A DNA stretch of 39,497 nt from Sphingomonadales bacterium (GTDB taxonomy: Bacteria > Pseudomonadota > Alphaproteobacteria > Sphingomonadales > Govanellaceae). Positions 22,175-26,690 of this stretch are shown here, one piece after another. The stretch covers positions 1-39,497 of the forward strand of contig JACFMS010000025.1 of NCBI GenBank assembly GCA_019455285.1, written 5' to 3'. The notes below the pieces were generated by a model that was given only the letters and a program-made list of their open reading frames with translations, had not been told where the DNA came from and searched no databases. Within the stretch, counting starts at the first letter, position 1. Every line of letters begins with the position of its first letter. A program made the translations under genes and the position numbers.

Positions 22175-22882
22175 TCACTGGGCGTCAAAAGCGATTTCAA
22201 AGCGGAATGGACCATCGCCCAGAACGGGCGGCACTTTGGGATAGGGGCGCGCCTTTCGTATGGCGGCGATGGCCATCCGACGGAGGGCATCATTGCCGTT
22301 ATCGGACTGAAGTTCCACCGACAACAGATCCCCTTCGGGTGACAGCATAAAGGCGACGACCACCGTCCCTTTGCCTCGTATTAGTCGCGGCTTGTAGTGG
22401 GCAAGATGGGTCCATAGTTTTTTTGCGTATTCATTCCTTGCGGCTGCAAGGGCAGCCGCATGGGCCTCAGACCCGGTCAGGGCGGGCATGGCTGGACTAA
22501 CTTCAGCGGGAGCGCTGGATTCAGGCGCCGTGGCCGATATTTCCGCAATCGCCGCTTCCGAGGCCATGACCGGGGAGGGATATTCCGGTGGTTTTTTCTT
22601 TTCAGGAGGGATTGTCAGAAGTTCCTGTTCTGCCGCCTTTTTCATAAGAGGTGGTAGTGACACCGGCCTGAGTTCGGGCTCCTTGTCAGGCTCCGGCATT
22701 AGCGTCACCATTATGAAGGGCATGTCGGCGGCCGATGACGCACTATGGGACGCCGGCCAAGTCAGGATACCGGCGATAATGGCGGCGTGTATTGCCAGGG
22801 ACAGGGAAACGGCCAGCAGACGCCTGGGGACACATTTCGGTGTCCGCCTCAGCTTTTCGCTCCTTGTGACGCCGCCGTTCAT
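22175..22882 (-). CDS. tonB: TonB family energy transducer
   Basis: A 235-residue TonB-like protein that would span the periplasm and drive outer-membrane receptors using the proton-motive force harvested by ExbBD. There is a single N-terminal membrane helix (LLAVSLSLAIHAAIIAGILTW, about 22-42), a Pro/Glu/Lys-rich linker (EPELRPVSLPPLMKKAAEQE, PPEKKKPPEYPSP), and a C-terminal TonB domain from about 150 (KLWTHLAHYKPRLIRGKGTV, VVAFMLSPEGDLLSVELQSD, ALRRMAIAAIRKARPYPKVP). No exbB/exbD is nearby. No good ribosome site precedes its ATG, but a 27-codon ORF ends across it (ATGA). A DUF2946 gene lies upstream. Probably dedicated to the copper receptor of this cassette. Confidence 0.88.
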   Translation of the reverse strand: MNGGVTRSEKLRRTPKCVPRRLLAVSLSLAIHAAIIAGILTWPASHSASSAADMPFIMVTLMPEPDKEPELRPVSLPPLMKKAAEQELLTIPPEKKKPPEYPSPVMASEAAIAEISATAPESSAPAEVSPAMPALTGSEAHAAALAAARNEYAKKLWTHLAHYKPRLIRGKGTVVVAFMLSPEGDLLSVELQSDNGNDALRRMAIAAIRKARPYPKVPPVLGDGPFRFEIAFDAQ

Positions 22883-22962
22883 GCCGTATCAGCACCGGCG
22901 CGAATAGCATCAGATTTATACATAACCATATCCTTGAGATGATGCGGCAGACCCATGTTCAT
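22879..22962 (-). CDS. 27-residue Met/His-rich ORF coupled to tonB (possible leader peptide)
   Basis: A short frame of 27 codons starts with ATG at 22962 and its TGA overlaps the tonB ATG (ATGA). The peptide begins MNMGLPHHLKDMVMYKSD and holds four Met and two His in its first 14 residues, so it could bind copper. The DMVMYKSD part also resembles the DIGLxRxD signature of small DUF1127 proteins, though weakly. No clear Shine-Dalgarno precedes it. It may provide translational coupling for tonB, whose own ribosome site is poor. It could also be chance; confidence is low. Confidence 0.35.
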   Translation of the reverse strand: MNMGLPHHLKDMVMYKSDAIRAGADTA

Positions 22963-23027
22963 GAGATCGCCGGAACAAGCAGGACCCGTCTACGCTGAAG
23001 CGAGCCGGTATCCTAAAATGTTAACAA

Positions 23028-23465
23028 TCACGCAAGGTTGGACGGTGGCGCACGGGGGGTGGCGGCAAGATATAAATCAAGGGATAATGGCGCTGCCGAC
23101 GGGCGCCACAATTGCACGGGAACGGCAGCGGGCATGAAGCCGGCTGTCATAACCGCCTTTCCTACGGCCATTTGGCCGGCAAAGGCAAAGGAACAGGGAG
23201 AATCTTTATGCGGGGCGGAAGGCGCCTTCGCCGGCTGCCCATCCGGCCCCACGACCAGCAGCATGGGCCCGTTACCCGAACAAAGGACAATACCCTGGCT
23301 GCCTGCGGGCATGAACCCGGCGGGGGCCATCACTTGAACGACAAGAGCGAGCACGGCGAGGTGGACGCTGAAAAAGCGCCAGACCGCCGATCCCATTGTT
23401 CGTAATTGCCCCATATCGTTCACTATCTCACCCACCCGCTCGGAGCAAGCACAGCACATAATCAT
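23028..23465 (-). CDS. DUF2946 protein with C-terminal PRAPPS motif (copper-responsive leader candidate), upstream of tonB
   Basis: Up to 145 residues; in-frame Met18 (23414) or Met25 would give the usual family length and no ribosome site decides. A hydrophobic export segment (VHLAVLALVVQVMAPAGFMP, about 34-53) precedes LCSGNGP (Cys62), VVGPDGQPA and SPCSFAFAG (Cys91), the DUF2946 pattern, and the protein ends PRAPPSNLA with RAPP at 138-141. DUF2946 members CutF (Rhodobacter) and CruR (Bordetella) are known copper-responsive upstream ORFs that control translation or transcription of following genes. RAPP is a known ribosome-arrest motif. It precedes tonB by 145 bases and shares motifs with the DUF2946 protein at 26186-26590. 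Sensor function here is inference. Confidence 0.8.
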   Translation of the reverse strand: MIMCCACSERVGEIVNDMGQLRTMGSAVWRFFSVHLAVLALVVQVMAPAGFMPAGSQGIVLCSGNGPMLLVVGPDGQPAKAPSAPHKDSPCSFAFAGQMAVGKAVMTAGFMPAAVPVQLWRPSAAPLSLDLYLAATPRAPPSNLA

Positions 23466-23470
23466 AATTG

Positions 23471-23590
23471 CTATCTTTGGACAACCCCCGGATTCGAATT
23501 GCTAGCAACGGGTGAATTATTCTCGAAGCGTACCTGATTTGGAGTTTTGTACCCAAGGCATTTTCGGGGGCGAGGCTCTTTAATGCGAGG
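23471..23590 (-). pseudogene. IS30-like transposase C-terminal remnant
   Basis: The minus-strand frame reads PRPRKCLGYKTPNQVRFENN followed by SPVA, which resembles the end of IS30-family transposases (RPRK-LGY-TP-EV). Only this tail of about 30 codons is recognisable; the DDE catalytic core is absent and I see no flanking terminal inverted repeats. The rest of the gap 23466-23764 contains the receptor gene terminator (23655-23698) and nothing else I can identify. The remnant sits between the copper receptor and its downstream DUF2946 gene, a sign of past mobile-element activity in this cassette. Confidence 0.5.
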
Positions 23591-23654: not shown

Positions 23655-23698
23655 TAAAACGAAAGGGCGCGAAGGAGATAGGTTCCCTCTTCGCGCCC
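23655..23698 (-). terminator. Intrinsic terminator of the copper receptor gene
   Basis: A perfect 10-bp GC-rich stem pairs GGGCGCGAAG (23665-23674) with CTTCGCGCCC (23689-23698). On the minus strand it is followed by a T-rich tract (TTTCGTTTTATTT). It lies about 67 bases beyond the receptor stop codon, so the receptor and the downstream DUF2946-tonB pair are probably separate transcripts. Confidence 0.8.
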
Positions 23699-23764
23699 TT
23701 CTCTTTTCGGCGAGCGAGACTGAGTCGCTAGGCGTCCATCCCTGGCGCCTATCGACGGCGGTGA

Positions 23765-26065
23765 CTAGAACTTGATGTTTACCCCGGCATAGATCGAACG
23801 GCCCATGCCGGGAACAGTAACACCCCAAGGAACTAGGCCGGGTTTTGGCGGCATAGTCGCACCCTGGCCGGTGTAGGCGCCACTTAGCGGGTGGCTGTAG
23901 AACTCATCGAAAACGTTTTCGACCCCGATGTCGAAGCGTACTCGCTTCCATTCGTAGCTGCTGCGTAAGTGGACGAGGCTGTAGCTGTCGGTCGGAATCT
24001 CGTTCCTCACCTGCGATACCCTATCCTTGTCATCGACCCATTCGAGTTCAATCGTATTAGTCCAACTGTTCAGGCGATGGCTCACCGCCAGTTTTACGTT
24101 CAACGGCATGATGTTGTAGAGATTGTCTCCGGTCGTCCGGTTTTTGCCCCTGACATAGTTCAGGACGCCGCTGGCGGTGAAGTTGCCGTAGCGCTCGGTC
24201 TTCGCCAGGAGCACATGGCCGGATACATCCAGACCATACAATCTAGCCGATTGATTGACGAAGGTAAGGAAGACGAAATCGTCCGTTACGCCCACGCTTT
24301 TAGCGAGCCGTTCGGCATCGATGTAGTCCTTGACGTGGGTGTAGTACGGGCTCACCTTCAGCCCCCACTTCTCCTGGGCGGCATCGTGCAAGTCGAAGGT
24401 GACGCTGACGGTGTGGGCAACCTCCTGATCCAGATCGAGATTGCCGACATAACCATTGCCGTCACCGGCCATGTTGACCATGAGCATCGCCATGCCGCCG
24501 GTTGACCAGGTGTAGCGCTCGTAGAGGTTGGGTGAGCGAGTCTTGCGGGCCAATCCGAACTCGATGGTGCGCGTGGCGTCCAGGGTAAAGCGCGCCAGGG
24601 CGGTCAGATCGAAGTTGTTGTCGGTCCGCTTGCGGTCGGCGGCATTGAAGTCATTCGCATCTGCCGAGTAACCGGCGTTATACCCCTGCACTTTGCCCGC
24701 ATCCATCTCCACCCGCTCAGCGCGGATCCCGAACTGAGTGAGCCACTGTGGGCTCCACCTCGCCTCCCATTCGGTGAACAGGGCCAGTCGGTCCCGCTTG
24801 CCGTCGTTGATGTTCCAGAAGGTGTCCGGCCACATCCCCTTGCCGGCCGGATCCCACCAGTCGTCCAGGCGGTAGCGCTGGGCCTCGGTGCCCACGCGGA
24901 GCAGATCGCGTGCCGTGAGTTTAATATCCGCCTTTACCGCCACACCGGTGTTTTTGCCCTCGGTGTCCATGGGCATGCCGGCTGCGCATCCCCCAGGATT
25001 GCCTTTGGGAGTGCAGGGAATGCCGCTGTCGGAGAAGTTGTTGGGTGAGCTAGGGCCGTACCAGAAGAGCTTGTCATCGCCGAACTGCATCTTGTGGCGC
25101 GTCTTTTCATGATAGACGCGGCCCTCCAGCGAGCCCCAGTCGAGTTCGGCGGTATGGCGCAGGTTGACCTGTATGCTGTCGTTACCGGTCATGTCCATGC
25201 GCTGGTTGGGCCAGTTCTGAAATGGGATGTCCTGCACGCCGAGCTTCAGCTCGGTTAGGTGGTTCTCGTTACGCATGGCGAGGCTAAGCGAGTGGTTGCG
25301 TGATCTGTAAGCCGTTGATCCCACCTCGTCCCCCTCCAGCCACCCTCTACCTGGTGCTGCCAAGCCGGCATCCTTGAATGCCTTGGCTGATTTGTAGTTG
25401 TCGGCTTCCGCTGTGGAGCCGCTATAGGTCATGCTGAGGGTCTCGTTGGCGATGGTCGCTTTGACGTTGGCGCCTCTGGCGTTGCCGTTGCTGCGATAGT
25501 AGAAACCAGTCTCCCCCTTCAGCAGGGTACCCTCACCGGTAGCGGCGAACTCGGGCGCGGACGACTCCGCCAAAATCGTACCGCCAATGCTGTCACCCCC
25601 GAGGCTGACTGGCGTAATGCCGGCAAACACCTTGATGCTCTCCACGTTGGTCGGATCCATGTAGGAGAGAGGTGGATTCATGTGGTTGCCGCAGGCCGAA
25701 ATCAGGTCCATGCCATCGACCTTAATGCGCAAGCGGTCATCGGCCAGACCGTGAATTGCCGGCAGACTGGAACCCCCCCCGGCACCGTACAGGCTCACGC
25801 CAGGCATGTTTTTCAGAAGACTTGCCGTGTCACTGGTGGCGGGCCGCAAAGACTGCAATGCCGCATCGTCGAGTTCTGATGCGTTAAATAGCTGCGCATC
25901 GGCCGCTGGCACCTGTTGATCATCCACAGCCGTAACCGGCATATCGGGCAGCTTCACCGCCTCCTGCGCGGCGGCCGGCAGGACAAGCGCCACCACGGCG
26001 CAGGAAACGGTTAAAGAAGCATGGGCTCGGCCATGGCCGAGCTTTAAAGACTTTGTTACAGACAT
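23765..26065 (-). CDS. TonB-dependent copper receptor (OprC/NosA-like)
   Basis: A 766-residue TonB-dependent outer-membrane receptor. A signal peptide (VSCAVVALVLPAAA, about 20-33) is followed by a TonB-box-like VKLPDMPVTAVD, a plug with NMPGVSLYGAGGGSSLPAIHGLADDRLRIKVDGMDLI, and a barrel ending in Phe (YAGVNIKF). The plug contains ACGNHMNPPLSYMDP, with Cys125, His128 and Met129, very like the CPNHM segment of Pseudomonas OprC, where Cys and Met of this loop bind copper. A second candidate ligand patch is NQRMDMTGND. This places it in the TonB-copper (OprC/NosA) family. ATG at 26065 has GAGGAA just upstream. It is preceded by a DUF2946 ORF and followed by a terminator. Confidence 0.92.
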   Translation of the reverse strand: MSVTKSLKLGHGRAHASLTVSCAVVALVLPAAAQEAVKLPDMPVTAVDDQQVPAADAQLFNASELDDAALQSLRPATSDTASLLKNMPGVSLYGAGGGSSLPAIHGLADDRLRIKVDGMDLISACGNHMNPPLSYMDPTNVESIKVFAGITPVSLGGDSIGGTILAESSAPEFAATGEGTLLKGETGFYYRSNGNARGANVKATIANETLSMTYSGSTAEADNYKSAKAFKDAGLAAPGRGWLEGDEVGSTAYRSRNHSLSLAMRNENHLTELKLGVQDIPFQNWPNQRMDMTGNDSIQVNLRHTAELDWGSLEGRVYHEKTRHKMQFGDDKLFWYGPSSPNNFSDSGIPCTPKGNPGGCAAGMPMDTEGKNTGVAVKADIKLTARDLLRVGTEAQRYRLDDWWDPAGKGMWPDTFWNINDGKRDRLALFTEWEARWSPQWLTQFGIRAERVEMDAGKVQGYNAGYSADANDFNAADRKRTDNNFDLTALARFTLDATRTIEFGLARKTRSPNLYERYTWSTGGMAMLMVNMAGDGNGYVGNLDLDQEVAHTVSVTFDLHDAAQEKWGLKVSPYYTHVKDYIDAERLAKSVGVTDDFVFLTFVNQSARLYGLDVSGHVLLAKTERYGNFTASGVLNYVRGKNRTTGDNLYNIMPLNVKLAVSHRLNSWTNTIELEWVDDKDRVSQVRNEIPTDSYSLVHLRSSYEWKRVRFDIGVENVFDEFYSHPLSGAYTGQGATMPPKPGLVPWGVTVPGMGRSIYAGVNIKF

Positions 26066-26185: not shown

Positions 26186-26590
26186 TTAGAGGAGGCGCGA
26201 GGGTGGTGCCCGGGGGCCGATGGCGGGAACGAATCGAGCGGCAAGGAGGGTGGTGTGCAGAAACGGCAGCACCGCCGCCGCCAGCATGACAAAAAGTACC
26301 GGCTCGTACCCTACCGCCGAGGGCGTCGCCGGGCTGGCAAAGGCGAAGGCGCAAGGGGATGCTTTACCAGATTTGGCCGGCGTCTGGACGGGATTTCCCG
26401 AACCGTCCACCGCCACGACATGGGGGCCATAGCCGGTGCATACCACGAAGCCCTGGCCGCCGTCGGCCAACAGGCCCGGCATGAACCCAGGCGGGATGAG
26501 GGTATATGACAGCAGCGCCAAGAGCGCCAAACCTGCGCCTATGGCGCGGGCACCCCGCAACGCTGATATCCAAAACAACCGCACTGGCAA
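26186..26590 (-). CDS. DUF2946 protein with C-terminal PRAPPS motif, upstream of the copper receptor (CruR/CutF-like leader candidate)
   Basis: A 134-residue DUF2946 protein. A hydrophobic export segment (AIGAGLALLALLSYTLIPPG) leads to GFMPGLL, VVCTGYGP (Cys51), VVAVDGSGNPVQTP and SPCAFAFASP (Cys80), and the C-terminus is PRAPPSRLL with RAPP at 127-130. The frame opens with TTG at 26590 (GTG two codons later) and no ribosome site is evident, so the start is uncertain. It lies 120 bases upstream of the OprC-like receptor, the same layout as cruR and its receptor gene in Bordetella, where the DUF2946 ORF mediates copper repression. Where other DUF2946 proteins often have a CxxC-like pair, here it is CAFA. 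Copper sensing is inferred. Confidence 0.82.
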   Translation of the reverse strand: MPVRLFWISALRGARAIGAGLALLALLSYTLIPPGFMPGLLADGGQGFVVCTGYGPHVVAVDGSGNPVQTPAKSGKASPCAFAFASPATPSAVGYEPVLFVMLAAAVLPFLHTTLLAARFVPAIGPRAPPSRLL

Positions 26591-26690
26591 CTGTCTAACT
26601 TGTCGTAAAACTCAGGCTGGGGCGTGGGCATATAACCACAGCCGGAGAAATTGGACAAGCGTCAAGATTGGCAAAAAGGCGGTCTATCCC

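Follow-up and report, generated by a model that had tools for sequence, protein, structure and literature searches.

CruR (bp2923) of Bordetella pertussis and its operons have been described (PMC9426467), and its arrest has been demonstrated (PMC12992588). Mutation of the CXXC motif of CruR strongly impairs copper control and the RAPP motif is needed for expression; the upstream C51 is dispensable. The 3' end of cruR is C-rich, and an excess of C over G marks a Rho site. RAPP leaders upstream of "TonB-related" genes have been listed as a group and illustrated with receptors (PMC12992588), and "TonB-like" neighbours of CutF-like genes, probably receptors, have been mentioned (PMC9973294). The main text of the open-access papers searched gave no description of a DUF2946 leader placed immediately ahead of tonB or exbB; a table entry could exist. 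The original prediction, which knew of no DUF2946 leader controlling a TonB gene, agrees with this text but has to be qualified, as TonB and ExbBD genes are found in some operons of the crtA type, which often start with cruR (PMC12914433).

Anatomy of the two-leader locus

The window, i.e. the whole stretch of DNA analysed, comprises 39,497 nucleotides of a Sphingomonadales contig (JACFMS010000025.1). The minus-strand order is pyrE, leader a, a TonB-dependent receptor gene, an intrinsic terminator, leader b, a gap of 145 nt, tonB, a DUF2062-like gene and pdxJ, the last two named from their translations (Table 1). Leader b heads its own unit, with the terminator upstream and the gap to tonB downstream. 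As predicted, a terminator separates it from the first transcript, in the form of a long GC-rich hairpin and, after it, TTTCGTTTTATTT (-32.2 kcal/mol, z = -3.0), and the next gene encodes a TonB, whose C-terminal domain scores above the cut-offs of PF03544 (32.5 versus 24.6 bits, E = 1.2e-7) and TIGR01352 (37.5 versus 27.1 bits). Given one leader each, copper may switch the receptor and its TonB energy supply separately. Separate control of receptor and energizer by the same signal had been proposed; tonB does have a leader of its own behind a terminator, while the common signal is read from context because the CXXC of CruR is missing from both leaders.

Table 1 Features of the locus in window coordinates.
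Feature	Position	Strand	Remarks
Leader b (CruR-like, DUF2946-like)	23028..23423	minus	stop 23028; probable start GTG 23423, ATG 23414 or ATG 23396
Leader b inner sites	23282-23280; 23195-23193; 23054-23043	minus	first conserved Cys codon; SPC Cys codon; RAPP
Leader b–tonB gap, 145 nt	22883..23027	minus	sister species identical at 142/145
tonB, 235 aa	22175..22882	minus	nearest TonBs are those of leader-receptor-tonB copper operons
Possible 27-codon ORF (MNMGLPHHLKDMVMYKSDAIRAGADTA)	22879..22962	minus	stop overlaps tonB start (ATGA)
Promoter-like TTGTCC-N17-TTATGT, 5' of leader b	23456..23484	minus	putative
Intrinsic terminator 3' of receptor gene	23656..23707	minus	hairpin and T-rich tail
OprC-type TonB-dependent copper receptor	23765..26065	minus	C125xxxM129, H324xM326
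Leader a, 5' of receptor	26186..26590	minus	C-terminus GPRAPPSRLL
Promoter-like TTGTCC-N17-TTATAT, 5' of leader a	26630..26658	minus	kept in sister species

Leaders a and b align with 38% identity over 108 residues (E = 1e-13), a resemblance beyond chance. The motifs said to be common to both were found in leaders b and a as GFMP, VLCSGNGP/VVCTGYGP, SPCSFAFA/SPCAFAFA and PRAPPS, and the RAPP codons indeed differ (CGT GCG CCA CCG in b, CGG GCA CCA CCC in a). The RAPP motif stands four residues before the end (RAPPSNLA in b, RAPPSRLL in a) and 46 residues after the SPC cysteine in both leaders. The CXXC copper motif is absent from both, with DSPC and ASPC in its place. An open frame at 23465-23028 on the minus strand had been reported; the frame is present, but at 23465 the sister species lacks the ATG and carries a frame-shifting base, so the start probably lies at one of the three codons in Table 1. 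The DUF2946 label applies loosely, since the PF11162 scores (14.4 bits for leader b and 20.2 bits for leader a) lie under the gathering cut-off of 23.7, and a PF11162 search of the own genome gave no matches and found neither leader. The N-terminus of leader b contains a segment that is hydrophobic by eye (LAVLALVVQVM), and a low-confidence structure model shows one helix at residues 2–27; with a mean pLDDT of 42.5 the model was useless for the Cys–Cys distance. The two leaders cluster with moderate support (92/69), which would fit a duplication predating the split of the two species, as one of several possible origins. Among named records, leader b matched one genome contig, and no match was obtained in plasmid records.

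The receptor has both halves of the OprC copper site. Specifically, C125xxxM129 corresponds to Cys143/Met147 of OprC in a phmmer alignment, and H324xM326 was matched to His323/Met325 by its motif and by conservation in homologues rather than by direct alignment with OprC (ligands from PMC8610252). Both motifs are kept in all 16 aligned OprC-type homologues, and OprC is the only strong PDB match. The best NCBIfam model is of a heme receptor type, yet under every cut-off, and the TIGR01778 equivalog score is 114.8 bits versus a cut-off of 472.45 bits. By sequence, the receptor is thus an OprC-type copper receptor, yet no ortholog by TIGR01778.

The genome contains three TonB_C genes including that of the window. 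The window TonB matches copper-operon TonBs of other genera at 25–56 bits and matches neither of the two further TonBs of its own genome; its best match outside copper operons is a TonB from another genus of its family (30 bits). On these comparisons, it is a dedicated TonB.

The 5' sides of both leaders have the promoter-like TTGTCC-N17-TTAT[AG]T in common. In the sister species, the second hexamer before leader b is changed to TTAGGT. A scan for the sigma-70 consensus found nothing, and a common origin of the two promoter regions was rejected because no alignment was better than shuffles.

The CXXC-less leaders and operon layout in relatives

The sister species keeps the adjacency of leader b and tonB, and also the second leader and terminator between receptor and tonB. 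Leader b differs between the two species by four synonymous and no non-synonymous changes, in line with the predicted selection on its amino acids. However, dS is 0.03–0.08 for leader b, tonB and the receptor versus 0.23–0.35 for the neighbours, and the divergence along the segment is mosaic. The low divergence is partly due to recent exchange of the segment between the two species, so conservation in the sister species is weak evidence, and dN/dS between the two species was rejected as strong proof of selection. Elsewhere in the window, at 19357-17108, about 2.2 kb have one mismatch to the sister species (L005) and are surrounded by about 7% divergence; this near-identity would reflect either a recent exchange or an assembly or binning artefact, at least the sister record being a MAG.

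A profile based on the window detected relatives of the leaders in 94 of 398 genomes of its order. Surveys based on PF11162 undercount this subfamily because that model mostly misses it, as in the window's own genome. In most of the 60 loci that were read, the leader stands at the head of a receptor gene, in many cases with PepSY_TM next, and one heads a PCuAC gene. All aligned relatives (68/68) retain the final PP and a pair of cysteines, which in leader b lie at a distance of 29 residues. The first cysteine of CXXC has been lost from the subfamily, and a C..C at that position is present in just two of the 68 rows (L094 and L095). The distance from the second cysteine to the arrest motif is 45–50 residues, compared with 46 in the window. 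R[GA]PP ends half of the 68 relatives, and the others end in [IST]GPP or similar, often after PPPP. With CXXC absent and two cysteines invariant, both the signal and the binding site are matters of inference, and the metal site was likely rebuilt from the two remaining cysteines. Tentatively, a sensor subfamily without CXXC could read copper via two cysteines about 29 residues apart and separately gate the energizer of copper uptake, with receptor and TonB each set by its own leader and the two leaders differing in sensitivity; we regard this wider proposal as possible but doubtful.

A large clade of leaders (L037-L044, L065-L067, L070-L072 and others) ends in AAPPPP..[IST]GPP without the arginine of RAPP/RGPP. 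These leaders still head the same receptor-PepSY operons, and their arrest motif may differ. Several leaders per cassette are not unusual: three loci (L118, L119 and L120) have tandem DUF2946 leaders, and two more (L145 and L163) have three DUF2946 leaders each. In the tandem loci, one leader ends in PRASP and precedes a gene for a PCuAC copper chaperone, an assignment that Pfam confirms in L118; the other ends in RAPP and lies ahead of a receptor gene or the next gene.

Eight loci of the window's order (L046, L051, L052, L061, L084, L096, L097 and L098) and one of another order (L103) have leader, receptor and tonB arranged in a row on the same strand. The tonB gene starts 3–4 nt after the receptor gene in the five loci measured, and about 2 kb lie between leader and receptor in L098. 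In a separate receptor search, each of the five closest receptors in the order was followed by tonB, with a leader upstream. Because this single operon is a common layout in the order, the window's genus looks like a case in which a leader-receptor-tonB operon was split, and one such operon is most likely the ancestral state.

Directly behind PF11162 matches across Pseudomonadota, the 73 next genes comprised 34 receptors, 18 PepSY_TM and four PCuAC genes, and none matched TonB_C; a leader directly before tonB is therefore rare. The original prediction would have been undermined by a lack of DUF2946-tonB adjacency in relatives, and such adjacency was found: besides the sister species, leaders over energizer genes occur outside the window's genus, since a second alphaproteobacterial family has DUF2946 leaders, ending in RAPP, before exbB-exbD-tonB or tonB-exbB. 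In ten genomes of this distant family (L227-L236), the leader lies directly before exbB-exbD-tonB, with exbD read by eye in L227 and the TonB-like protein there distantly related. The leader–exbB gap is 137–166 nt where both ends are clear, and PF11162 and ExbB (about 1e-30) are above cut-offs where scanned. Unlike those of the window, the leaders of this family carry CXXC, and these leader–energizer pairs are independent of the window's. In L184, the gene 65 nt downstream of a DUF2946 leader is TonB-like and precedes exbB, the TonB match being weak (TIGR01352 E = 0.02).

Most of the ten loci also have a second, divergent DUF2946-like gene upstream. L184, L218 and L226 are further loci of this family with such a leader over energizer genes. 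Among plasmids, the TonB-like protein of this family matched a distant relative at a Methylocystis locus annotated as iron/siderophore uptake, where no DUF2946 gene is listed. From this relative, the family may be methanotroph kin. Neither exbD nor tonB genes are named in the text of a paper on the copper transcriptome of Methylosinus trichosporium.

Regulatory model and alternatives

We read leader b as a regulatory leader peptide of the CruR type that serves a TonB dedicated to copper and gates tonB by a putative RAPP arrest, with a probability of roughly 0.6. When copper is scarce, the ribosome would stall at RAPP, cover the leader's C-rich 3' end and exclude Rho, and transcription would continue into tonB. 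With ample copper, the nascent chain would bind the metal and fold, probably via the two invariant cysteines since CXXC is absent; the stall would then be released and Rho would end the transcript before tonB. Leader a would act likewise on the OprC-type receptor. A second leader and a terminator would have come between receptor and tonB in this lineage, giving two separate units, which may both respond to one signal but at different set points.

In both leaders, the excess of C over G is highest at the 3' end, clearly so in a (0.346) and modestly in b (0.218); other genes of the window reach 0.15–0.33. A stalled ribosome might instead act as in CutF or SecM, opening a hairpin that hides the tonB start, so that control is translational and copper (or export) raises tonB. 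There is precedent in CutF of Rhodobacter capsulatus, a DUF2946-family leader that acts via a stem-loop over the cutO ribosome site; moreover, the tonB ATG has no clear Shine-Dalgarno sequence upstream, and the small ORF that ends in ATGA over this start codon makes translational coupling possible. However, the gap between leader b and tonB has no better fold than its shuffled versions (z = -0.11), on which ground a CutF-like hairpin in it was rejected, and both the RAPP end of the leader, as opposed to the proline-rich end of CutF, and the long gap recall CruR. We therefore consider control of this kind unlikely. The 3' peaks of C over G and the gap without special structure favour the CruR model over the hairpin model, weakly in the case of b. 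The small ORF is rich in Met and His.

It is similarly improbable that operon rearrangement left leader b behind as a relic, i.e. a duplicated leader that no longer senses, with tonB constitutive. The missing CXXC, the low Pfam score and the clustering of a and b, as expected of duplication, would suit such a relic, but the open frame, cysteines, spacing and RAPP are all retained, and an entire subfamily without CXXC nevertheless heads copper operons. In addition, if the protein were unconstrained, four synonymous substitutions out of four would have p of about 0.005 (the fourth power of a synonymous-site fraction of about 26%). Less likely still, the leader senses export state, another metal or the redox state of the cysteine pair instead of copper. 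With CXXC missing, the cysteine pair at its spacing of 29 residues could serve as a different metal site or be joined by a disulfide, and links to Ni/Co or to Zn efflux operons exist for some DUF2946 relatives; against this, the cassette has an OprC-type copper receptor, and the neighbours of the subfamily are copper genes (receptor-PepSY_TM and PCuAC operons).

If leaders of the CruR type also gate TonB and ExbBD, cells would tune the energy supply of copper uptake and not the gate alone, and dedicated TonBs would join copper homeostasis, where CruR-type control has so far been known for the copper receptor operon. The CXXC-less subfamily would demonstrate that leaders of this kind can have their copper site rebuilt, and would offer a direct test of how metal binding releases RAPP arrest.

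Comparison with known systems

Leader b resembles CruR in being a small leader at the head of a copper-uptake unit, with a C-terminal RAPP and a C-rich 3' end; CruR has an export signal, for which the hydrophobic N-terminal segment of leader b is a candidate. The distance from cysteine to RAPP is 46 residues in leader b and 45 in CruR, and the gap to the next gene is 145 and 162 nt, respectively. In contrast, CruR, the experimentally tested one of the two, senses copper by CXXC, which leader b lacks (DSPC/ASPC), and precedes a receptor instead of tonB. CutF of R. capsulatus (PMC9973294) is likewise DUF2946-like; it is an exported leader with a proline-rich end that controls the next gene by copper, as leader b may do. 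It differs in its CxxxC motif and its stem-loop over the next start, and copper raises expression. The exbB-exbD-tonB operons of the distant family share a DUF2946-RAPP leader directly before TonB-system energizer genes, but there the leader has CXXC and is above the Pfam cut-off where scanned, exbB comes first, the TonB-like protein is only distantly related and the receptor is not adjacent. The crtA operons with cruR (PMC12914433) similarly combine a copper receptor, a leader and sometimes TonB genes. Their TonB genes are operon members, whereas the tonB of the window follows a terminator and a separate leader and accompanies a receptor of the OprC type. As leader-receptor-tonB operons are common in the window's order and TonB/ExbBD genes occur in crtA operons, only the separate leader of tonB is unusual.
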